Below the pieces are notes generated by a model. The model did no database searches. It was given only the letters and a program-made list of their open reading frames with translations, and was not told where the DNA came from. Below, one piece after another: positions 1,193 through 19,605 of a stretch of DNA of 23,343 bases (positions within the stretch are counted from its first letter, which is position 1; each line of letters starts with the position of its first letter). The position numbers and the translations under genes were made by a program. Source of the DNA: a virus; IMG/VR virus record IMGVR_UViG_3300027721_000773, positions 1 to 23,343 of that record. One strand, given 5' to 3'.

Positions 1193-3865
1193 ATGTTAAC
1201 ACCTAGATTAACTAATTGTCCTGAATGTGCAGACATTCCTAATTTATTAAAAAGAGTAGATTGCAAGTTAGCAGAATATGCTAATGGTCTATATAACAAT
1301 GTTGTATTTATGTTGAATCAAGTTGTTCCTGCTGGAGCAATGATTCAACTTTTGGCGTATAAAAGAATCCTTACATACAAACAATGTAATCCTGATTATC
1401 TAAGTGATATATGTATGGACAAGATTGTGAGTAAGGTGATGAGATTAACATTAGGTGCTGAGATCAACACTATTTTTACACCAACACCTACAACATCTAC
1501 AACATCAACTACATCAACAACAACTAGTACAACAACTGCTGTTCCAGTTATTACTAGTGTTACAGAAATAAATATATGGTTTGATAATTCAGGATCTATG
1601 GGTACTACATATGGTCCATTACTAAGTATGGCTAATACATTATTAAAAGATTGTATAGGTCCTGTTTATGGATATAATCCATCAGTACCTGGTAGTGATG
1701 CGTTATATAACACTAGAGTAAAAGTAAATGCTATTGCTAATGAAAGATTTGTATCATGGTTAGCTACAGGACGTAATTATGGCAGAACTACAGATACAAC
1801 AGTAAATCAAGTACTTAATTTAACCTTTGCAGATGAGTCTGATGTTTATGGAGCAGTAACAGGAGCCTTTAACAATACAATAAGAACTGCACAATATAAT
1901 TCAGACGTTACCTTACTAAGATCACAATTAGCTACAGTCTCGTATTCTATTGAAGGACTTGCTTACCAAGTAAATACAGGACCAAATCAGTTTCCTGCAT
2001 TTAGAGGTTTAACACAAGCAACTTTTGTAGACACTGGTGTTTATGTTCCTCCATATAATATTAGCAATTTAAATAATTTTGATTATCAATTAGATGTAAT
2101 TGCAGGATCAACTCCAGAATACTATTTAAATTTAGTTGAATCAGGATTAAATAGTTTAGGATTTATTTTTACATGTGGAGGTGGTACAACCACTAGTACA
2201 AGTACATCTACTTCAACATCTACATCTACCACTACAGGTGTATGTGTAAGACCAGGAGGGCTAACTGATGGTAAGTTAGTTTCAGCTTATCAACTTGATG
2301 GTGGTAATTTTAATTACTTTAGTACAATAAGTGCCCTGTTTGCTTGTCAATCATTTCAAACTTTTCGTGCAGGAAATGGTGATGGAACAATAAATTATAA
2401 TATTTCATATTCTTCATTAAATATTAATGAAAAACTTTATGAAGTTTGGGGTAGTACTAGTTGTAACTCAGTTCCAGATGGATATTATTGGTTTCAGCCA
2501 GATAATACTAATCCAGTAACATATTTTAATGCCACTGATCCAATAAACATTGTTACAGTAGTAAATGGATACATTACAGCAATTAACGTATGTAACAGTT
2601 CTACAACAACTACAACAACAACTACATGTGATCCTAATACACAACATCCATATTCTTATCAATTAATCAGTGCAACCCAAGCAGGTCCAAATTTTAATTA
2701 TATTACTTCATTAACTACTGCTTGTAATGCAAAAGATTGTTTAACTTCAAGTACTTGTATTCCTTATGTAACAACTACCACTCAGTGGAATGCAAATACT
2801 CTAGCAATAGGAATGGTTGCTTATGGAGCGACCACTGGATGTCAACTATCCCAACTTGCTGATGGATATTATACAGTGTTTATAGGTGCTGGTACTTATG
2901 CAATTGTACAAATAGTTAATAGTGTACTAGTAGATTTTCCACAATGTCCAACACCTACTACCACTACAACTAGCACGTCTACTAGCACTACAACTACAAC
3001 CACAACTACTGCAAACCCTGTATCTAGTATTTTGGGAACTACAGAAAATACTCCAGTTGGAATTACAATTGATTCGGCAGGAAATATTTATACAGCAAAT
3101 TATAGTTCAAACAATGTAACAAAAATAACACCCTCAGGTGTATCAAGTATTTTGGGAACAACAGGAACTAATCCAACTTTCATCATAATTGATTCGGCAG
3201 GTAATGTTTATACTACAAATAATGGTTCTGACAACGTAAGTAAAATAACACCCTCAGGTGTATCGACTATTTTAGGAACAACAGGAGCTGAACCATATGG
3301 TATCACAATTGATTCAGCAGGAAATATTTATACATCAAACCTAAGTTCTAACAACGTAAGTAAAATTACGCCCTCGGGAGTGTCTACAATATTAGGAACA
3401 ACAGGAACTACTCCAAATGGAATAACAATAGATGCCGCAGGAAATATTTATACAGTAAATAATGGTTCACATAACGTAACAAAAATCACACCAGCAGGAG
3501 TGTCAACTATTTTAGGAACTACAGGAATTAGTTCACATGCAATTACAATTGATTCAGCAGGAAATATTTACACAGCAAGTGTTTTTTCAAACAACGTAAC
3601 AAAAATCACGCCCTCGGGAGTGTCAACCATTTTAGGAACAACAGGAACTACTCCAGAAGGAATTATAATAGATGCTGCAGGAAATATTTATACATCAAAT
3701 TATTCTTCAAATAACGTAAGTAAAATAACACCAGCAGGAGTGTCAACCATTTTAGTAACTACAGCACCTGCAGGAACTGGTCTATATGGTATTACAATTG
3801 ATTCAGTAGGTAATATTTATACAGCAAATTCTACTTCAAATAACGTAAGTAAAATAACACCATAA
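1193..3865 (+). CDS. Multidomain phage adhesin: anchor, vWA-like domain, two recurring domains, seven-blade repeat array
   Basis: The protein has 890 residues. Residues 1-95 are a conserved-looking helical anchor (NCPECADIPNLLKRVDCKLA, then LLAYKRIL). A Thr/Ser linker (97-115) follows. Next comes a von Willebrand factor A-like domain (~125-330) with a DxSxS metal site, D131-N-S133-G-S135. A second linker (331-349) leads to two copies of a ~100-residue domain (350-469 and 480-584), each ending in a G/dGYY...nG.i..i..C pattern and separated by Thr tracts. After a fourth linker, seven 40-residue repeats (610-890) resemble NHL/SMP-30-type beta-propeller blades. This is the architecture of a surface-displayed host-binding fibre: the N-terminus would attach to the virion and the other domains would contact the cell envelope. 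The family of the vWA domain is inferred from the MIDAS-like motif and length only. Confidence 0.85.
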   Translation: MLTPRLTNCPECADIPNLLKRVDCKLAEYANGLYNNVVFMLNQVVPAGAMIQLLAYKRILTYKQCNPDYLSDICMDKIVSKVMRLTLGAEINTIFTPTPTTSTTSTTSTTTSTTTAVPVITSVTEINIWFDNSGSMGTTYGPLLSMANTLLKDCIGPVYGYNPSVPGSDALYNTRVKVNAIANERFVSWLATGRNYGRTTDTTVNQVLNLTFADESDVYGAVTGAFNNTIRTAQYNSDVTLLRSQLATVSYSIEGLAYQVNTGPNQFPAFRGLTQATFVDTGVYVPPYNISNLNNFDYQLDVIAGSTPEYYLNLVESGLNSLGFIFTCGGGTTTSTSTSTSTSTSTTTGVCVRPGGLTDGKLVSAYQLDGGNFNYFSTISALFACQSFQTFRAGNGDGTINYNISYSSLNINEKLYEVWGSTSCNSVPDGYYWFQPDNTNPVTYFNATDPINIVTVVNGYITAINVCNSSTTTTTTTTCDPNTQHPYSYQLISATQAGPNFNYITSLTTACNAKDCLTSSTCIPYVTTTTQWNANTLAIGMVAYGATTGCQLSQLADGYYTVFIGAGTYAIVQIVNSVLVDFPQCPTPTTTTTSTSTSTTTTTTTTANPVSSILGTTENTPVGITIDSAGNIYTANYSSNNVTKITPSGVSSILGTTGTNPTFIIIDSAGNVYTTNNGSDNVSKITPSGVSTILGTTGAEPYGITIDSAGNIYTSNLSSNNVSKITPSGVSTILGTTGTTPNGITIDAAGNIYTVNNGSHNVTKITPAGVSTILGTTGISSHAITIDSAGNIYTASVFSNNVTKITPSGVSTILGTTGTTPEGIIIDAAGNIYTSNYSSNNVSKITPAGVSTILVTTAPAGTGLYGITIDSVGNIYTANSTSNNVSKITP
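3020..3862 (+). repeat. Seven tandem 120-nt repeats encoding beta-propeller-like blades
   Basis: Units begin at 3020, 3140, 3260, 3380, 3500, 3620 and 3740, an exact 120-nt period. Each encodes a version of VS(S/T)ILGTTG..P.GITIDSAGNIYT.N.(S)NNV(T/S)KITP(S/A)G. The last unit carries three extra residues (APAGTGLYG region) and lacks the closing Ser-Gly. Conservation at the nucleotide level is high (for example GATTCAGCAGGAAATATTTA recurs), so the array has probably grown by recent tandem duplication. Seven units would close one propeller ring. Confidence 0.9.
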
Positions 3866-7333: not shown

Positions 7334-8041
7334 ATGACAGTATTAATAACACTAACAACAGCAGGTGCAGATACAGGACCATTCAACCTATATTCAGATG
7401 TTAATGGATACACTAGTGCATTTGTATTAAACGTAACCAAACAACAACTAACTGATGGTTATCCATCTGATATAGTTCCTGATGGTACAACAGTAGTCAA
7501 AGTACAATCTGTTAGTAGCTTATGTAATAATTACATACTCTTAAATGTTCCAACAACAAGTACTACCAGTACTAGTACTTCTACTAGTACAAGCACTAGC
7601 ACTAGCACTAGCACCAGTACCTCTACTAGCACATCAACATCTACTAGCACTAGTACAACCACTAGTTCTACAACAAATGGAATACCAACTATCGTAACTA
7701 CTTTATGGTATGGGGTTTTTGATGGTCCAACAAGTTATAATATGAATACTGCACCAACAGATCTTGATGCTAAATGTATATGGGAAGAGTATTTTGTGAC
7801 TTTGAATTGGGCAGGTCGTGGAATGGATCTTAAATCATTTGTTAATCTTGCTGTTGGAGTTCAATTATATAATACTAATAATACAACATATAGTTCATCA
7901 GGAAGATTTGTTATTGACACCAACACATTTGGAGCATTAACTCCTGGATTTGTACCACCTAATAGATATGTTATACAGCACACTACAGGTCTTATTACTT
8001 CTATAACTAATTTTAATGATTTACCAACTTGTCCTGCTTAA
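7334..8041 (+). CDS. SGPF-module display protein with a 41-residue Ser/Thr linker and a C-terminal domain
   Basis: The protein has 235 residues. Residues 1-72 form the shared N-terminal module (ITLTTAGADTGPFNLYSD, a GYP segment, VPDGTTVVKVQS, a Cys, then a YILLNV strand). Residues 74-114 are an unbroken Ser/Thr run, the longest in the window. Residues 115-235 are a compact domain (CIWEEYFVTLNWAGRG, LAVGVQLYNTNN, HTTGLITSI, LPTC). Its order of features loosely matches the recurring Cys...G.Y...nG.i..i..C domain of the 890-residue adhesin. The layout is anchor, flexible spacer, exposed head, consistent with a virion decoration or host-binding protein. The function of the head domain is unknown. 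Confidence 0.8.
   Translation: MTVLITLTTAGADTGPFNLYSDVNGYTSAFVLNVTKQQLTDGYPSDIVPDGTTVVKVQSVSSLCNNYILLNVPTTSTTSTSTSTSTSTSTSTSTSTSTSTSTSTSTSTTTSSTTNGIPTIVTTLWYGVFDGPTSYNMNTAPTDLDAKCIWEEYFVTLNWAGRGMDLKSFVNLAVGVQLYNTNNTTYSSSGRFVIDTNTFGALTPGFVPPNRYVIQHTTGLITSITNFNDLPTCPA
7553..7675 (+). repeat. Low-complexity Ser/Thr codon tract
   Basis: There are 41 consecutive Thr or Ser codons, mostly as alternating AGT/AGC/TCT and ACT/ACA/ACC, giving repeated ACTAG hexamer-like DNA. The unit is in multiples of 3 or 6 nt, so slippage or recombination would alter linker length without breaking the frame. Similar shorter tracts lie at about 373-435, 1481-1540, 2182-2238, 2599-2629, 2950-3012, 9838-9912, 18032-18095 and 18512-18536. 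Confidence 0.95.
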
Positions 8042-8087: not shown

Positions 8088-9590
8088 ATGATAATATTCT
8101 TACAATTAACAATCGCTGGATCTGATTCAGGTCCATTCAATCTTTACTCTGACTCAAATGAATTTGCAGAACCTCCTTTTGAAACAGGTGTAAATAAATC
8201 TTTACTGGAGGTAGGTTATTCACTAGATGTACCAGATGGTACAGAAACTATAAAAGTTGTATCTACAGGAAATTGCATCAATTTTATAGACATACCATTA
8301 TTGTTTCCAGATTGTAATTTAGCTGGATATTCTGAACCTGCACTTATTGCTACACCAGTTACTTTTATTACAAATGAAGATACTGATGTCACTGTGCAAC
8401 TAGTAGGACTATCACCTAATCCTAATCCAGATTATGTAATAGCATCTCTACCTAATGTTTTACAAGGAACTATATATGATCCAGGTACAACTTCACAAAT
8501 AACAACTGTACCATATACATTGGTTAGTTCTGGAGCAACAGTATTATTTAGACCTACATTAAATTATTTTGGTAACGTTGATTCATTTAATTTTCAAGTA
8601 TACCAAGATTTATATTATAGTAATGTAGCTACAATAACAGGAACAGTATTAGCAGTTAGTGATTCTCCTATATTTGATCAAAATCCTCCACCATATGATG
8701 GAACACCTAATGGAACATATACATACACAGGCACAGTGTCTGACCCAGATACTCCAGCTGCTCAATTAGTTGTAAGTGTAGCGTCTACTTCTTCTTTACC
8801 ATCAGGATGGACACTTGTTCAAACTTCTGGTACTAATCAATTCACACTTACAGGACCTGTTCCTTCTGCAACAACTTATGTCATAATCTTACAAGTAACA
8901 GATGGAGTTAATATAACCCAGCAAGAAGTATCTGTTACTGCAACCGCTGCTGATCCTTGTGGTAATTGTATAATAGGAACAGAAATACAAATAGGAACTC
9001 AAACATGGCTAACTTGTAACTTAAATGTAGATACATATAGAAATGGTGACCCAATATATCATGCAACTGATCCAACAGATTGGCTAAATAAAGGAGCAGC
9101 TGGAATAGGTGCTTGGTGTTATTTCAACAACGATTCTGCCAATGGTCCAATTTATGGCAAGTTATACAACTGGCATGTGGCTAATGATACTGCTCATGGT
9201 GGTGTAGGCCCTGCAGGATATCACGTTCCAACAGAAACTGAATGGGATACTTTATACAGTACACTAAATGCACTATCACCTACAGGAAATGTTGGAGGAA
9301 AGATGAAATCAGCGTGTGTTAACCATTGGGTTGCCCCTCAATTCCCTACTAATGTAGATGCTACTAATCAATCAGGCTTTAGAGCACTTGGAGCAGGATT
9401 TAGAAACGTTGATTATGCGCCTCCTAGTGGATTTGGAGGCTTTGGCTGGGATGAAACTTGGTGGGAATTTGGAAGTTTATTCGACCCAACAAGAGGATAT
9501 GGTCGCTACCTACGTAAAACTAGTGGTCTTGCATTTAGAGGTAACTATCCTTTCACAGATGGTTACTGCATAAGATTAATAAAAGATTAA
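8088..9590 (+). CDS. SGPF-module adhesin with cadherin-like repeats and a Fib_succ_major (C-type-lectin-like) head
   Basis: The protein has 500 residues. Residues 1-70 are the shared module (LTIAGSDSGPFNLYSD, VPDGTETIKVVS, a Cys). About 95-185 resembles a cadherin-like tandem domain (TNEDTDVTVQL, then FRPTLNYFGNVDSFNFQVY). About 190-288 is a second Ig/cadherin-like domain (YTYTGTVSDPDTPA, then TYVIILQVTDG). Residues ~290-500 match the Fibrobacter succinogenes major paralogous domain: GTEIQIGTQTWLTCNLNV, GAWCYFNNDS, YGKLYNWHVAND, GYHVPTETEWDTL, GFRALGAGFRN, and the closing YCIRLIKD. That domain has a formylglycine-enzyme/C-type-lectin fold often used for ligand binding, so this is a probable host-binding head on a stalk. 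Unlike its neighbours it has no poly-Thr linker. The C-terminal 70 residues are rich in Gly, Phe, Trp and Asp, like a variable ligand face. Confidence 0.85.
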   Translation: MIIFLQLTIAGSDSGPFNLYSDSNEFAEPPFETGVNKSLLEVGYSLDVPDGTETIKVVSTGNCINFIDIPLLFPDCNLAGYSEPALIATPVTFITNEDTDVTVQLVGLSPNPNPDYVIASLPNVLQGTIYDPGTTSQITTVPYTLVSSGATVLFRPTLNYFGNVDSFNFQVYQDLYYSNVATITGTVLAVSDSPIFDQNPPPYDGTPNGTYTYTGTVSDPDTPAAQLVVSVASTSSLPSGWTLVQTSGTNQFTLTGPVPSATTYVIILQVTDGVNITQQEVSVTATAADPCGNCIIGTEIQIGTQTWLTCNLNVDTYRNGDPIYHATDPTDWLNKGAAGIGAWCYFNNDSANGPIYGKLYNWHVANDTAHGGVGPAGYHVPTETEWDTLYSTLNALSPTGNVGGKMKSACVNHWVAPQFPTNVDATNQSGFRALGAGFRNVDYAPPSGFGGFGWDETWWEFGSLFDPTRGYGRYLRKTSGLAFRGNYPFTDGYCIRLIKD

Positions 9591-9614: not shown

Positions 9615-9914
9615 ATGAATTTATTTATAAGATTAACAAGCGCAGGACTCAACTCAGGACCATTTAATCTGTATTCAGATACTGATGGTTACCAGGCAGC
9701 ATTTGAATCTGATGTACCTAAACAAGATTTATTAGATGGTTATATATCTAATCTAGTTCCTCCTAGTACGAAAGAGATTAGAATTCAATCTAATAATGTT
9801 TTATGTACCACTTACATAAATGTAGTTGTAACAGCTCCTATAACAACCAGCACCACTAGTTCTACTAGCACATCAACTAGTTCTACAACAACATCTTCTA
9901 CTACTACTGCATAA
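9615..9914 (+). CDS. Bare SGPF module with Ser/Thr linker and no head domain
   Basis: The protein has 99 residues. Residues 1-73 are the shared module (IRLTSAGLNSGPFNLYSD, VPKQDLLDGY, KEIRIQSNN, a Cys, then YINVVV). Residues ~75-98 are a Ser/Thr linker, and the protein stops there. The two sister genes upstream carry a linker or stalk and then a globular head; this one has neither. It is the last gene before the terminator at 9952. It may be a complete decoration peptide, a remnant that lost its head domain by deletion, or an acceptor to which a head can be joined by recombination. The frame after the stop holds no continuation. Confidence 0.75.
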   Translation: MNLFIRLTSAGLNSGPFNLYSDTDGYQAAFESDVPKQDLLDGYISNLVPPSTKEIRIQSNNVLCTTYINVVVTAPITTSTTSSTSTSTSSTTTSSTTTA

Positions 9915-9920
9915 TAAAAA

Positions 9921-9950
9921 AAATCTGAGTTTGTTGGTTTTCTTAGATTT
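9921..9950 (+). terminator. Hairpin immediately after the adhesin block
   Basis: AAATCTGAG (9921-9929) pairs with CTTAGATTT (9942-9950), 9 bp including one G-U, around a 12-nt loop. It directly precedes the stronger hairpin below. It may assist termination or protect the mRNA 3' end. Confidence 0.5.
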
Positions 9951-9951
9951 T

Positions 9952-9984
9952 CTCCTCAAGATATTCTTGGGGAGTTTTTGTTTT
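9952..9984 (+). terminator. Intrinsic terminator ending the adhesin operon
   Basis: CTCCTCAAGA (9952-9961) pairs with TCTTGGGGAG (9965-9974), 10 bp with one G-U and a TAT loop. It is followed at once by TTTTTGTTTT. This is a classical rho-independent terminator for the plus strand and divides the adhesin block from the next transcription unit. Confidence 0.88.
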
Positions 9985-10088: not shown

Positions 10089-10193
10089 ATGACTGAGAAT
10101 CAAGATTTGTTATTCAGGTTAGAGGAGTTATTAAGCATGAAGAAAAGTAAAAAGTTCTATGCAGAAAGATTAGGAATAAGTGAATTGAAGTGA
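10089..10193 (+). CDS. 34-residue HTH-like leader ORF overlapping the phosphoesterase gene
   Basis: The protein starts with ATG and ends at a TGA whose last bases overlap the downstream GTG start (GTGA). It reads as a charged helix (LLFRLEELLSMKKSKK) followed by KFYAERLGISELK, the first part of a helix-turn-helix. The downstream protein opens with VNELLKELREKDE, exactly the continuation expected for an HTH recognition helix (GIS..xVxxLLxELR). So the two may be one protein split by a -1 frame change, or two translationally coupled products. Inserting a single G in the GAAGTGAAC junction would fuse them. Confidence 0.55.
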   Translation: MTENQDLLFRLEELLSMKKSKKFYAERLGISELK

Positions 10194-11311
10194 ACGAACT
10201 TCTAAAGGAACTTAGAGAGAAAGACGAACCACATATAGAAGTAATTAAGAATTATATAGAAGAATCACGTAAGGTAAATGTTGAGAAGGGTACAATAGAA
10301 AGCACTATCACTAGTGACTTTGATCCAAAGGATGATATTGAACTAGCAGCATTACACAAAATAAATTTAGACAAATACATCATTACCAACTACTGGTCTA
10401 AGATGTTACCAAGTGGGAAGTTTACATCTTCCATCTTTAGTAAAAGAAAACAAGCCCAAGATTACTCCCCTGAAGACTTTGCTAAGTTTTTAGAAAACTA
10501 CAAACCAAACAATATAGATGTCATTAAACCAGAACATCATCTCACTAAAGAGCATGTAGATGTAGAGATATCTATTTCTGATTTTCATTTAGCTAAGAAA
10601 CATGTAGATGGAGATAATGATCCTGCAAGTAGAGCACTAAGATATTTCAATGTAGCACAATCTTTGATAATGAAGGTGAGAGCTAATTACAATATAGACA
10701 CTGTTATCCTTCCTATATCGAACGATTTCTTCCACACTGATAACTATCAACATCAAACTACAAATGGTACTCCACAGGACACTATAATAGATTATGCAGA
10801 TGAATATGAATTAGGCTTTGCAGTTCTTGTAGATACAATCAATATGTTGAGACAGAATGCAAATGATGTAAAGGTGATACTTGTACAGGGTAATCATGAC
10901 AGAACTAAATCATTCTACTTAGCACACGCACTAGATGTATATTTCACAGACCACTTTGATGTAGAGTTTGATAGATCACACAGTATAATAAAAGGACTTA
11001 CTGTCGGTAATACATTTATAGGATGGCACCATGGTAATTGTAAACTAGATGATCTTCCATTATTGTTTGCTACACATACTAAATTTAGTCATCAGTTTGG
11101 AGATGCTAATTACAGAGAGATACACACAGGTGATAAACATCACTACATGGCAAAAGAACTCAAAGGAGTTAGAATACAACAAATGCCTAGCTTATCAGGA
11201 ACAGATAGATGGCACCTAGATAATAACTTCGTACACTCAGTACGAGCAGCTCTTGCTCTAGTTTATGATAGAAAGCTAGGAAAGATAGCAGAGTTTGAAA
11301 CACGAATATAA
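10190..11311 (+). CDS. Calcineurin-like metallophosphoesterase
   Basis: The protein has 373 residues with a GTG start; an in-frame stop at 10181 leaves no better upstream start. The metallophosphatase motifs appear in order: D131-x-H133 (SDFHLAKKH), N178-D179 (SNDFFH), G234-N-H-D237, a G-W-H-H-G at 278-282, and a GDKHH at 314-318 in place of the usual GHxH. These would form a two-metal site cleaving phosphomonoester or phosphodiester bonds. Phage members of this superfamily are often annotated as exonuclease- or phosphatase-like. Residues 1-120 are a non-catalytic helical extension that may bind DNA together with the upstream HTH-like ORF. It sits in a virion-gene cluster, which is unusual for a DNA-metabolism enzyme. 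Substrate unknown. Confidence 0.85.
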   Translation: MNELLKELREKDEPHIEVIKNYIEESRKVNVEKGTIESTITSDFDPKDDIELAALHKINLDKYIITNYWSKMLPSGKFTSSIFSKRKQAQDYSPEDFAKFLENYKPNNIDVIKPEHHLTKEHVDVEISISDFHLAKKHVDGDNDPASRALRYFNVAQSLIMKVRANYNIDTVILPISNDFFHTDNYQHQTTNGTPQDTIIDYADEYELGFAVLVDTINMLRQNANDVKVILVQGNHDRTKSFYLAHALDVYFTDHFDVEFDRSHSIIKGLTVGNTFIGWHHGNCKLDDLPLLFATHTKFSHQFGDANYREIHTGDKHHYMAKELKGVRIQQMPSLSGTDRWHLDNNFVHSVRAALALVYDRKLGKIAEFETRI

Positions 11312-13500: not shown

Positions 13501-16500
13501 ATGGCTGAAGAACAATCACAAGACAATATAAAACAAGAACTTAATAGTGCTAACATAGGGCTAAACCTTGATAACACATTAAATCAAATTAAACAGGGCA
13601 CGCTAACGTATGCCCTGAATGCTGCTGTTGAAAACTTTGATTCTTCTTCTGTCAACTATCAGAATGAACAAGGTAATGAACTATGTGTGACATTTCCTAA
13701 AGAATTTATATTAATAGGAACACATTTCATTAATGAACAAAGTAAGCATATATTCTTTATCACCAATCCTAATACAGGAGATAGTGAGATAGGATATATG
13801 GATAACAATGATTGTATCTACCATACATTAGTTAGTGCTCTATGTCTTAACTTCGATACAGATCATCCTATTCACAAAGCAGTACATAAAATAACAAATT
13901 GTACAACAGAGATATATTGGACAGATGGATTTAATCCTAGAAGATATTTAGATATTAATAATATTCCATATGTATTAAAAAGCCAATCTGCACTTTGTGA
14001 TCCTAAATATACAGATGAATTAGATTGCAATCAATTAAAACTGCAACCTAATTTCAATATTCCAAATCTTTCTATTGTAGATATTACCACAGGAGGTTCT
14101 CTTCTTGCTGGTACATATCAGTTTGCAGTACAATACTCTGATGCTGTAGGTAACCCTTTCACTTCTTATTATTCTATTACCAATCCTACACCAATTGCTG
14201 ATCCACAAATTGCAACAGTTAACTTTAACTATGTTGTAGGAAAGTCTGTAGTTGTTGCTGTAGATAACTTAGATGCTACAGGACAGTTTCAATATTTCAA
14301 TCTAGCTGTAATTAAAACAGTTAATGCAATTACATCTGTAGAATTGATTGGAACATATTTTATAGATAACACATCTTTAAATGTAACTTACACAGGACAG
14401 ATAGTTGATAACATTCGTTTATCAATGAATGATATATTTGAGAAGTTTCCATATTATGATATAGCAGAAGATTTAACAGCTGTGCAAGATGTTCTTGTAT
14501 GGGATGGACTTGGATCTATAGATAGAATTAATTATCAATCTATAGCTTCACAAATAGAGTTGTTATGGGAAACATATCGACTTCCTGTAAATGAAAACTA
14601 TGCAAATGAATTAAATGCTACAAACCTTAGAGGATATCTTCGTGATGAAGTGTATGCATTTGAAATTGTATTCTTATTAAAGAATGGAAAACAAACAGAT
14701 GGTTTCCATATTCCTGGAAGAATATTAAGTTATACTGATTCACAATATCCAGATATTCCAACTACAAATTCTGATTTTGTAGGTGAACCTGATAGAGTAG
14801 ATCCTGGTACAGGAGTTGGATATAGTCCTTATTGGAAAATATATAATACAGCTAGAGATCTTGGTGTATCTAATGGTAATCCTATTGGTAATGCTATTGG
14901 ACATAGATTTGGTGAATTTTCATATTGGGAATCAACAGAAAAGTATCCATGTAATGCAGATCTTTGGGGAGAATTAGCTGGTCAACCTATTAGACATCAT
15001 AAGTTTCCAGATGTATTAATATCTCCTATTACACAACCAATTATAGGATATGATCCTTCAACAAGATTAGTTACTCAAAATAATTATGTATATCCAATAG
15101 GAGTTAGAATAAGTACATCACAAGTCTATGATTTAATAACAATATCTTCTTTAACTAAAGATCAAAAAGCTGATATAGTAGGATACAAAATAGTAAGAGG
15201 AGACAGAGGAACAAATAAATCTATTGTAGCAAAAGGGATTCTTCGTAATATTGGAAAATATCAAAGAGAAGGACAAGATTTTTATTTTCCCAACTATCCA
15301 TACAATGATGTTAATGTTGATCCATTTTTAAATACAACTAATAATGCTTGGACTGGTGTATCACAAGTTTGGTTAGTAACTTGTGATAGTTTAGATCCTA
15401 CATTAGGATATGCAGAATATTCATATGGAGATCCAAATACAAATAAACTAGCAACAGCAAGGATAGCCAAAGGTGAGACAAAAGAATTTTGCGCAACTAG
15501 TAGACCACTAACAACTGTAGGAACATGTACAATAGGTCCAGCTAATTATGATGTCTATTCTACTAATGGGTGTGAATCGTGTAAAGGTTCTAGAGTTTTT
15601 TATAATGATCCATTTACAAATAATAATACGCTTTCTACACGTTACGAACCATGGGTAGATGGATACAGTGGTAGTTGTGGCACTGATTACAGAAGAGTTA
15701 ATGTTGGTGCTGGTGTAAGTACTGATTGTAGCAAAAACTCAGGACCGCAATGTGCTGCATGCCAGTGTTGTAATCCAGGTATAACTTTACGAGAAAGTAT
15801 AACAATGCCTGAAAGACAGATTACAACTAGCGAAAAAGGTAGAAGATCAAGTATTAATTGTGCTGCTGCACAACCACAATCTTATAATAATAATGATGAT
15901 AAATATAGACAAATATTTAATTCTCCAGAAACTTCTTTTGGACAACCATTCTTAGGAGACATTCTTAAACTAGAGAATGTAATGTATGGTAAAGGAAGTG
16001 CACATTTTGTACCAGTTAAAAGTAATGCTAAATATAGACTTCTTACAAAAGAAGCACAACAGGATGCATTAAATAGTTCTAGTCAATTAGGTAATAGAAC
16101 TAGTCAGTTTAGTGCCACTGCTATGTTTACAGCATATCAAGCATACTTACAAATATATATAAATGGTATAACTAGAAGAAACTATGCATATTCATTTAAC
16201 TCAACAGCTAGTTATGATTATAGTGCCAAGGTTACTAATAGTGGAGACAAACAAAGAACGTTAGATATTAAAAGATATTTAATTCCAGGAGTACAAAATG
16301 TTGGTGATAATTTTAATATCAATAACTGGAATAGAGAATCTTCTATATATTTAAGAACAAAAGGATCTAAAGATAGTAGTGCTAATCCTTTACCATTTCC
16401 TAGTGATAATGGAGAAATGGCTAGCATAGGAATAAAGGATAAATCAAGATTTACTATAAGTGGTGGTAGTTCTTGTGGAACTCCTGCTCAAGAAAAAGAC

Positions 16501-18729
16501 ATAAGTGTTGTTTCTTATTATGCATCATTAAAGAATACATTTGTGAATCAATATGGTCAGATGTATTCTTATGATACAATTGATACAGGATTTCAAAGAA
16601 GTGTAACATCTAATACTGATGCTACAATATTTGGAGGAGATACATTTATATCTAGGTTTGCATTCAAAACTAAACTTCCTTTCTTTATAGACAATAGAGT
16701 TAATGCTCCTGATGATTCAGATATATTCTATGATGAGATTGGAAATATAGCCTATCCAAAATATTGGCACTCAGCTAGATCTATATTAAGTGATTACGAA
16801 GGTAACAATTCAGGGAAACTTACAAATATTATTTCTTACAAAGCTCATGAATTTGATTGTCCTAATGATCCATTACCTGCTACAGGTAGTAATAGAACAT
16901 TCTATGATGGATACTTTTATTTGTTTGCATATGGTATTCCTAATTTCTATTGTGAGAGTTCTTATAATACAGATCTAAGACAAGCATTCAATAATAGAGA
17001 AGGAGACTTCTGGCCACATGTATCAACAGGTATTCCTGATGATTGGGTACAAGAAGATTTTGTATCAATAGCAAATGATAATACATATACATATAATGTA
17101 ACATTCTCTAAACAAAATAAAGAAAATACATTTACACATTTACCAGCAGATTATGATGGAAACCCATGTTATACATACTATCCATTTAGAGCTGTGTATT
17201 CAGATGCACAGAACACTGATGCTGACAATAGAGTTAATAGCTGGTTAACATATAGAGCTATTTCTTATTATGACTTTCCTCAGAACTATGGTAAACTTAT
17301 ATCGTTAGATGGTATTCAAAACAAAGCTGTATTAGCTAGGTTTGAGAATAAGACATTAATGTATAACAACCTCCTTACAATTGATACAAGTAATCCACAA
17401 GCTGCATATGTAGGTAATCCTAATATGTTTAAAGGAGCACCTCCTATTGACTTTGCAGAAACAGATCTTGGTTATGTAGGTTCCCAAAACAAAATGTTAT
17501 TAAAGATTCCTCAGGGACAGATAACAGTTGATGCTAAAAGAGGACAAGTGTTTCTTATAGAAGGAACAAAGGTTGAGGACCTATCTGCATTTGGTTCTGG
17601 AATGAATAGATTCTTCACAGACCATTTAGCTTTTGAAATATTGAGATACTTTTCAAAAGTAGATATAGATAATAATTTTAATGGTATAGGATTACATGGT
17701 GTATATGATAGTAAGTTTGATAGAATCATACTTACTAAAATAGATTATATTCCATTAAGTTCAGATATCAAATATGATGATGTAACAAGAGATTTCTATA
17801 TAGGTGAATCACTAGGTAATAATACTATATTTAAAAGAGTTGTAAGTTTAAAAGACACAGATTACTTTTGTAATAAGTCTTGGACTCTTTCATTTAATGT
17901 AAACACTAAAAGCTGGATCTCTTTTCATAGTTATATTCCTAACTGGTATATAGCAGAAAACAATTTCTTTTATTCTGGTATCAATGGATGTTGTGATGAT
18001 TTTGAGTTTATTGCAGGAGGTCGTGTACCTACACCAAGTACTACTACTACAACTACTATATTTGCACCTACTACTACTACCACTTCAACAACAGAAATAC
18101 CTGCTAATTGTATAATAGCAGGAGAATTAATATTAACTAATTGTGAACTAGAAGGATTAGGTTATATACTTCCACAACAATGTCAAAGACCTACGGGATT
18201 ACAAACAACTTTACTTATAACAGGATATCGTATAATAGATCCATCTTCCACAGTAGTATCTACAGGAAGTAGTGCAGATGCATGTGCTGCAATGACTTAT
18301 ATTGACAATGCACTTATAGGATCAATAATTATTATTAGTATTTCAGGACAATTTTCAACTATTGCACTTGGTGAAACTGTGTATGATGGTACAACAGGTA
18401 CAGATTGTACAGTGGTACCTGATGGTTGGTATTTTACAGATGAAACATCTTCTATTGGTGATGTATTTAATATATCAAGTGGTATTGTAAGTCAAATACT
18501 TAATTGTAATCCAACTACATCTACTACTACAACATTAAATTGTTACTCGTTTACAATAAGTAAAGTATCAGTAGGAACTGTAACAGTAGATTACATTGAT
18601 TGTTCAGGAAATCCAGCAACTACAAGTGTTGGACTTCCATCACCAGGAGGACCTTCTGAAGTAACAATCTGTGGACAAAGTGTGAGTACACTTGCTGGAG
18701 TAACAATTCGTAATAATGGAACTTGTTAA
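13501..18729 (+). CDS. Giant tail muzzle-like protein with C-terminal display domains
   Basis: The protein has 1742 residues. It begins with a charged helix, then NIGLNLDNTLNQIKQGTLTY and a long beta-rich body to about residue 1505, as expected for a tail nozzle or 'muzzle' forming the tube end of a crAss-like podovirus tail. Within it, residues 691-757 hold a Cys cluster (CESC ... CAACQCC). Conserved-looking segments include GVYDSKFDRIILTK and WTLSFNVNTKSWISFHSYIP (from ~1460), followed by NGCCDDFEFIAGG. At ~1510-1535 there is a double Thr linker, then a ~100-residue domain ending VVPDGWYF ... GIVSQILNC. A short TTSTTTT linker and a 60-residue Cys-rich domain ending RNNGTC close it. The last ~230 residues look like added surface decorations. 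No enzymatic site is visible. Confidence 0.7.
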   Translation: MAEEQSQDNIKQELNSANIGLNLDNTLNQIKQGTLTYALNAAVENFDSSSVNYQNEQGNELCVTFPKEFILIGTHFINEQSKHIFFITNPNTGDSEIGYMDNNDCIYHTLVSALCLNFDTDHPIHKAVHKITNCTTEIYWTDGFNPRRYLDINNIPYVLKSQSALCDPKYTDELDCNQLKLQPNFNIPNLSIVDITTGGSLLAGTYQFAVQYSDAVGNPFTSYYSITNPTPIADPQIATVNFNYVVGKSVVVAVDNLDATGQFQYFNLAVIKTVNAITSVELIGTYFIDNTSLNVTYTGQIVDNIRLSMNDIFEKFPYYDIAEDLTAVQDVLVWDGLGSIDRINYQSIASQIELLWETYRLPVNENYANELNATNLRGYLRDEVYAFEIVFLLKNGKQTDGFHIPGRILSYTDSQYPDIPTTNSDFVGEPDRVDPGTGVGYSPYWKIYNTARDLGVSNGNPIGNAIGHRFGEFSYWESTEKYPCNADLWGELAGQPIRHHKFPDVLISPITQPIIGYDPSTRLVTQNNYVYPIGVRISTSQVYDLITISSLTKDQKADIVGYKIVRGDRGTNKSIVAKGILRNIGKYQREGQDFYFPNYPYNDVNVDPFLNTTNNAWTGVSQVWLVTCDSLDPTLGYAEYSYGDPNTNKLATARIAKGETKEFCATSRPLTTVGTCTIGPANYDVYSTNGCESCKGSRVFYNDPFTNNNTLSTRYEPWVDGYSGSCGTDYRRVNVGAGVSTDCSKNSGPQCAACQCCNPGITLRESITMPERQITTSEKGRRSSINCAAAQPQSYNNNDDKYRQIFNSPETSFGQPFLGDILKLENVMYGKGSAHFVPVKSNAKYRLLTKEAQQDALNSSSQLGNRTSQFSATAMFTAYQAYLQIYINGITRRNYAYSFNSTASYDYSAKVTNSGDKQRTLDIKRYLIPGVQNVGDNFNINNWNRESSIYLRTKGSKDSSANPLPFPSDNGEMASIGIKDKSRFTISGGSSCGTPAQEKDISVVSYYASLKNTFVNQYGQMYSYDTIDTGFQRSVTSNTDATIFGGDTFISRFAFKTKLPFFIDNRVNAPDDSDIFYDEIGNIAYPKYWHSARSILSDYEGNNSGKLTNIISYKAHEFDCPNDPLPATGSNRTFYDGYFYLFAYGIPNFYCESSYNTDLRQAFNNREGDFWPHVSTGIPDDWVQEDFVSIANDNTYTYNVTFSKQNKENTFTHLPADYDGNPCYTYYPFRAVYSDAQNTDADNRVNSWLTYRAISYYDFPQNYGKLISLDGIQNKAVLARFENKTLMYNNLLTIDTSNPQAAYVGNPNMFKGAPPIDFAETDLGYVGSQNKMLLKIPQGQITVDAKRGQVFLIEGTKVEDLSAFGSGMNRFFTDHLAFEILRYFSKVDIDNNFNGIGLHGVYDSKFDRIILTKIDYIPLSSDIKYDDVTRDFYIGESLGNNTIFKRVVSLKDTDYFCNKSWTLSFNVNTKSWISFHSYIPNWYIAENNFFYSGINGCCDDFEFIAGGRVPTPSTTTTTTIFAPTTTTTSTTEIPANCIIAGELILTNCELEGLGYILPQQCQRPTGLQTTLLITGYRIIDPSSTVVSTGSSADACAAMTYIDNALIGSIIIISISGQFSTIALGETVYDGTTGTDCTVVPDGWYFTDETSSIGDVFNISSGIVSQILNCNPTTSTTTTLNCYSFTISKVSVGTVTVDYIDCSGNPATTSVGLPSPGGPSEVTICGQSVSTLAGVTIRNNGTC

Positions 18730-18738
18730 TAAATTAAT

Positions 18739-19605
18739 ATGTTAAAAATAATAACAATAAGGCTAACGCAAGTGTCACCATCTTCTGGACCATTCACAAT
18801 CTATGATCAGTTTGGGAATGTGATAGCAGAAGATGTGACTAATGAAGCTCTCATTGATGGGATTAACTATTCTGTGGACGACAATGTATTATCAGTTACA
18901 TTAAGATCTACTGGTAAATGTAAAATACAAAAGACAATGTATTTAAGAGAGATTCCAGAAGATGAATATATTAATATTGGATTAAAACAAATTGTAACAG
19001 GATGTATATGGAGACACTTAACTAATATACAATTATACAATTCTTATTACGGTGTTACAGAACCATACATAATTGAATATCCATTTGCTTATAAGAATCA
19101 AGATGAGATATTACAGAATATAAAAGACTACACTAAAGCATATGAATATATATCTATACCAAATGGTGTCTTTAATGATAACACAAGAATAGAAACAAAC
19201 AACAAGTGGTTTAACAAAGCTATTCTATACAATGGACAACAGAGCTCAGGAGTGTTAACTCTTGTTGCTAAACCTCTTAATGATATGCGTGCGTACATGC
19301 AATATCCAATATTCAATGCAGATAGCAAAACAATCACATATACTAAGAGTGATAACTTCTATCAATACAATACATTCTGGGCACTACAGAAAAGTTCTCA
19401 AGTTCCATTGTTTAATACAGGATGTGAAAGTCTTTCTATTGATAAGGTGATTAACCAAAGCAATATGGATTATGGATCCAGAAGTTTCAAGAAAGCTACA
19501 CTAAGAGCTAAGGAGCTTAAGATACGTCATATATTAGATGACAATTGTACAACGCATTTAGTGAGTCAATTCTTAATTGCTCCTGCACAAATCTCTTACA
19601 AGTAA
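18739..19605 (+). CDS. SGPF-like module fused to a muzzle C-terminal-like domain
   Basis: The protein has 288 residues and starts 9 nt after the muzzle-like stop. Residues ~3-70 are a divergent copy of the shared module (IRLTQVSPSSGPFTIYD, TLRSTGKCKI). The remainder (TGCIWRHLTNIQLYNSYYGV, EPYIIEYPFAYKNQ, NKWFNKAILYNGQQSSG, FNADSKTITYTKSDNFYQYN, KKATLRAKELKIRHILDD) resembles, as I recall it, the segment that in other crAss-like phages continues the muzzle chain after its 'HSYIPN' region. I therefore infer that this phage carries the muzzle as two polypeptides: the body with decorations, and this C-terminal piece. It would act in the tail tip. The stop overlaps the next start as TAATG. Confidence 0.65.
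   Translation: MLKIITIRLTQVSPSSGPFTIYDQFGNVIAEDVTNEALIDGINYSVDDNVLSVTLRSTGKCKIQKTMYLREIPEDEYINIGLKQIVTGCIWRHLTNIQLYNSYYGVTEPYIIEYPFAYKNQDEILQNIKDYTKAYEYISIPNGVFNDNTRIETNNKWFNKAILYNGQQSSGVLTLVAKPLNDMRAYMQYPIFNADSKTITYTKSDNFYQYNTFWALQKSSQVPLFNTGCESLSIDKVINQSNMDYGSRSFKKATLRAKELKIRHILDDNCTTHLVSQFLIAPAQISYK

Follow-up and report, generated by a model that had tools for sequence, protein, structure and literature searches.

A poly-threonine linker in the last gene of a crAss-like phage surface-protein array as a likely site of head exchange

The window analysed here, a 23,343-nucleotide stretch of viral DNA, is the virion cassette of an environmental crAss-like phage, in which the gene at 9615–9914 encodes an Ig-like module followed by a Ser/Thr-rich tail, without the C-terminal head domain carried by other members of the same array. 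Comparison with relatives revealed that the last gene at this fixed locus is headless in some phages and headed in others, that the breakpoints fall in the linker and at the stop, that heads move between proteins, and that the module is conserved. We consider it likely that this terminal gene offers, in its linker, an exchange site for heads, and that its headless form is stable and probably works as such.

Specifically, the 9615–9914 product would be the terminal member of an array of virion surface proteins, its Ig-like base domain docking on the virion and the array products being exposed on the surface, as we infer. The tail or linker DNA and the conserved operon 3′ end would jointly be the site where heads are gained, lost and exchanged by recombination, and heads would also be traded with further T-linker scaffolds, of the fibre-like and hub-like kinds. 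Loss of a head would leave the module, the Thr tail and a stop, and the resulting headless form, both stable and common, would most likely be a small virion decoration with a short flexible and possibly sugar-modified tail.

The headless gene and its cassette

Ring proteins 1 and 2 (PF24228, E=5.4e-8, and PF25702, E=5.3e-17; Pfam) are present in the window, which begins inside the gene of a capsid-auxiliary-like protein. Full-length orthologs of this protein measure about 390 aa, and a model of the ortholog from locus L163, of moderate confidence (pLDDT 65), matched chain a of 7qof, the capsid auxiliary protein of phicrAss001 (Foldseek E=2.9e-8; VIA Z 12.7 over 265 residues). It is through this model that the capsid auxiliary protein (PH + FD fold) was putatively recognised in the cassette. 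The features on which the analysis draws are as follows.

2–442, + strand: C-terminal part of the capsid-auxiliary-like protein, with a headless poly-Thr end; kept in relatives
1193–3865, + strand: hub-like scaffold (MLTPRLTNCPEC) with T-linkers and several heads
7334–8041, + strand: module, long S/T linker and head
8088–9590, + strand: module and Fib_succ_major head; in L085 and L005 the ortholog stands last in the array
9615–9914, + strand: open reading frame of the headless protein, ATG start, TAA stop, 99 aa
9615–9824, + strand: Ig-like N-terminal module, residues 1–70 of the headless protein (E=2e-28 against a module profile made from the window and its relatives)
9825–9911, + strand: Ser/Thr-rich C-terminal tail, 29 aa, predicted to be disordered
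9912–9914, + strand: TAA stop of the headless gene
9924–9947, + strand: 6-bp covarying hairpin with conserved loop TTTGTTGGTTTT at 9930–9941
9952–9974, + strand: intrinsic terminator hairpin, then a T run
10190–11311, + strand: exonuclease-like neighbour, the anchor for sampling loci
13501–18729, + strand: crAss muzzle protein (PF25731, E=1.6e-36) with C-terminal T-linkers and small heads
18739–19605, + strand: divergent module fused to a muzzle-associated domain (muzzle-tip protein)

The first-pass annotation had described the 99-residue product as a module with a Ser/Thr linker and no head, and the open reading frame, the profile match and the disorder prediction all agree with this description. 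The tail, VVTAPITTSTTSSTSTSTSSTTTSSTTTA, consists for the most part of Ser and Thr. AlphaFold2, supplied with 136 module sequences, predicted a confident beta-sandwich for the module (pLDDT 93–97) and disorder for the tail (pLDDT about 52). Further copies of the module were found elsewhere in the window, at the N-terminus of the 7334–8041 and 8088–9590 products and, in divergent form, in 18739–19605. Because 225 distinct proteins among the loci fetched carry the module, the module gene cannot be attributed to chance.

Searches of Pfam, PHROGs and the sequences of solved structures, the latter by sequence profile, yielded no relative of the module; nothing convincingly related to the headless protein turned up in named phage records, and a single species-genome scan queried with a headless relative gave no match. 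At the level of fold, solved structures returned generic Ig/FN3-like matches only (best VIA Z 5.8, no Foldseek E below 0.4), including a weak likeness to type 9 secretion C-terminal domains.

That the gene is the last of the array, with a terminator right after it, was also confirmed; two hairpins lie 3′ of its stop. The hairpin at 9924–9947 is kept across the phage group directly before the terminator, and compensatory changes were observed in 13 of the 16 predicted pairs of the conserved 3′ end; no Rfam family matched the hairpin. From the stop onward, the 3′ flank is 98% identical to that of L085 over 378 bp and near-identical in close relatives. No head follows the headless reading frame, the interval between its stop and the next gene being made up of about 275 bp of noncoding DNA with the terminator, and a hidden head or frameshift in the window is thereby ruled out. 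Site-specific cassette exchange with a site after every gene was rejected as well, since the conserved hairpin loop is not repeated: TTTGTTGGTTTT occurs a single time in the window, after the last gene only. The true start of the neighbour gene lies upstream of the GTG at 10190. In aligned relatives the neighbour frame reaches an upstream ATG near 10089, and in the window (about 10089–10190) this frame is broken by a length difference of one base shortly ahead of 10190, reflecting either a real frameshift or a sequencing or assembly error.

Some array proteins contain Fib_succ_major or Laminin_G_3 domains, which would fit host-receptor binding by the heads. The Fib_succ_major family is a reported target of diversity-generating retroelements; the involvement of such an element was rejected, as no match to reverse transcriptase (PF00078) was found in 16 records of relatives (52–119 kb, some perhaps incomplete). 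At its C-terminus, the muzzle protein combines T-linkers with small domains, and thus shows the same joint on the tail tip.

Head states and breakpoints across relatives

Relatives of the locus were collected through the downstream neighbour gene, yielding 80 loci without selection for emptiness, and frequencies were derived from this sample only because a search with the headless protein itself is biased. After leaving out two loci without space for any upstream gene, and L091 with only about 1.3 kb upstream, 77 loci and the window remained as 78 informative cases. A module gene occupied the last place in every one of these 78, being headless in 43 and headed in 35, with heads of many kinds. 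The first-pass annotation had suggested comparing the locus among close relatives, where an identical 99-residue protein throughout would have spoken against a swap site; the comparison instead revealed that the linker of this last gene is joined to different heads, or to none.

In each of the 43 headless loci the last gene closes with TAA, after a tail of 13–47 aa. The spacing from stop to neighbour is 271–301 bp in 76 of the 78 informative loci, with 273–289 bp in the headless relatives and 271–301 bp in 33 of the 35 headed loci (the other two having 345 and 524 bp). On the tree of the neighbour gene at least 17 state changes were required, 11 of them forced by well-supported branches. Two kinds of change could be distinguished, namely gain or loss of a head on one module and exchange of entire module genes. 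Within ten groups with identical neighbour DNA the state never differed, indicating that head turnover is evolutionary and not a fast switch. Headed L151 and headless L152 do differ in state with nearly identical neighbours, their modules also differing, at 72% identity.

Several pairs of loci (L147/L151, L131/L138, L112/L132, L105/L118, L143/L155 and others) keep the module, the 3′ flank and the neighbour and differ in the head. In the first four of these the modules are 84–91% and the neighbours 91–96% identical, with the head present or absent. DNA identity in close pairs often reaches about 30 nt beyond the module, into the T-run, and returns at the stop or a few nt before it. The same N-terminus was moreover found with unrelated C-termini in close relatives (L052/L080, L131/L149 and L112/L133), the modules of L052 and L080 being 99% identical and their heads unrelated. 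The 7334–8041 gene and its counterpart in L085 likewise have unrelated heads on modules of 90% identity. Some headed genes (L105, L151, L087) have no T-linker between module and head.

Heads in turn recur on different carriers. Among module genes, heads of up to 99–100% identity sit on modules of 66–73% identity (in L047/L143, 99% and 66%, respectively), and of the 83 head families distinguished across all T-linker proteins, 24 are shared between scaffold classes, mostly the module, fibre-like and hub-like ones. The head of the last gene in L131 also lies inside a 550-aa fibre-like protein of L135, with T-linkers on both sides; the last gene of L135 itself is headless, and the neighbours of the two loci are 96% identical. 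Exact repeats between last-gene linker DNA and the upstream region are longer than for random DNA (median 15 nt, and 19 nt in the window, versus 10 nt), which would fit homologous recombination in these repeats without proving it. The breakpoints at linker and stop, the varied heads and the repeated changes of state together bear out the swap site proposed in the first-pass annotation, with recombination as its probable cause.

The window's own lineage is more intricate. Its six nearest relatives by neighbour DNA (90–95%) are all headed, and its closest relatives have a different module in last place, at 54–60% DNA identity. The best ortholog of its headless gene is an internal gene, headed in L085 and headless in L005. 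The module gene of the window has thus changed position in the array as well, an instance of the second kind of change, and cannot be taken as a plain loss of the head.

A second lineage (L025, L056–L057, L063, L068, L075, L077–L079, L084) displays tandem arrays in which bare modules, about 75–81 aa long and almost without a tail, accompany a headless and a headed gene.

Function of the headless form

The first-pass annotation had suggested that the headless gene may show the vacant state of the locus. This reading holds insofar as heads are present or absent there; as a mere vacancy it says too little, given that the headless form is common, under selection at the level of the group and often the sole module. 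A non-functional leftover of head loss, serving only as landing site for the next head, is in our judgement unlikely. It would agree with the polymorphic state, with breakpoints in the linker and with the module of the window's lineage, which differs from that of L005 by 4 synonymous changes versus 29 differences in amino-acid-changing codons, so that the case for selection on the window's own copy seems weaker than that for the group. It is opposed by headlessness being the majority state, with intact frames and a pairwise module dN/dS of 0.23 among headless genes, matching the 0.25 among headed ones. Moreover, among the 31 headless loci that have 7.5 kb or more of upstream sequence, 21 show no other module gene in the array, and in four 113–117 kb records the muzzle-tip protein carries the sole other module. 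Foresight for future heads could not preserve such a gene.

A second headless end is found on the capsid-auxiliary-like protein. Of the relatives whose sequence extends to the end of this protein (L163, L168 and others), nearly all have a conserved poly-Thr tail there, of about CITTTTTTSSAPASTTTTTSTLIP; all 44 distinct complete proteins of this kind with a detected T-linker are headless at that linker. Because the module is selected, is often encoded by the only module gene, and has a parallel in the capsid-auxiliary-like protein, whose poly-Thr end is likewise headless, the headless form is likely functional and probably represents a working product, for which this same parallel suggests a role as decoration. 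A functional poly-Thr tail, which the first-pass annotation had put forward as its alternative, appears at least as well supported as the vacancy. Substitutions in the tails (pS 0.45, pN 0.14) suggest Thr conservation, although we discount them, as the alignment of low-complexity tails favours such a result. The O-glycosylation motif of Bacteroidota is Asp-Ser/Thr-hydrophobic; the tail of the window contains no Asp, and the motif is therefore impossible there, so that a sugar modification of this tail is a guess.

An extension of the exchange-site explanation, which we put forward tentatively, would make the poly-Thr joint a general exchange platform, with one stock of small heads shared by recombination across Ig-module, fibre-like, hub-like and perhaps muzzle scaffolds, and the headless poly-Thr ends, invariable on the capsid auxiliary protein and often seen on the module protein, forming a functional, possibly glycosylated surface brush.

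It is very improbable that the head was deleted when repetitive linker DNA collapsed during metagenome assembly. Linker DNA does contain repeats, and the window is a contig assembled from a metagenome, but one and the same headless gene is present in independent records (L096, L098 and L099; L124/L125; L127/L128), and over 43 loci the flanks are coherent and the spacing is constant. It is likewise very improbable that another gene supplies a head which becomes attached in the course of translation or afterwards, whether through a frameshift, through readthrough or because a separate head protein is assembled onto the product. Although T-linker DNA lacks stops in the other frames and the next gene in L005 starts at the stop of the headless gene, the window's stop is followed by terminator and noncoding DNA, spacing is equal in headless and headed loci, and TAA closes every headless last gene.

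Relation to known systems

The locus makes an exchange of surface domains visible at one place that is alignable across many related phages: it shows where the joint lies, where the breaks fall, which protein was the donor in one close pair, and that the headless state is frequent. Renewal of surface proteins in phages of Bacteroidota-type hosts, a host range suggested by the crAss-like kinship, thereby becomes testable, and the headless Thr-tailed form, which even the capsid auxiliary protein takes, suggests a separate function.

Clear matches to the module fold were found in uncharacterised, unannotated proteins of Virus NIOZ-UU157 (BFVD A0A7S9STY0, A0A7S9XH99, A0A7S9SU94, A0A7S9SU37 and A0A7S9XFL2), with Foldseek E-values of 3e-6 to 5e-5 and 25–36% identity. 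Two of these proteins have 77 aa, scarcely more than the module and without space for a Thr tail, and one has 287 aa, a size like that of the muzzle-tip protein.

The virion cassette of phicrAss001 (Bayfield et al. 2023, PMC10172136) resembles that of the window in having muzzle, ring 1, ring 2 and capsid auxiliary protein in the same neighbourhood; the part of that article consulted describes neither T-linked heads nor poly-Thr tails. The tandem BACON repeats of crAssphage tail proteins (PMC6949934) are similar as Ig-like repeats in crAss tail genes that are seen as hotspots of adaptation, but they belong to another domain family and architecture, and the portion of that source available to us does not describe exchange at a Thr linker. 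A full-text literature search returned nothing on poly-threonine joints in crAss-like phages.

Phage receptor-binding proteins are known for domain mosaicism (Smug et al. 2023, PMC10684548), in which, as here, a constant N-terminal part is combined with C-terminal domains that are swapped, and one C-terminal domain can recur on unrelated proteins. Unlike in that work, whose text mentions neither linkers nor crAss phages nor threonine, the joint here is a poly-Thr linker of several scaffold proteins in one phage group, and headless forms are frequent. The phenomenon is therefore a variant of the known domain mosaicism in phage host-interaction proteins, distinguished by a shared poly-Thr joint and by a frequent, apparently functional headless state.
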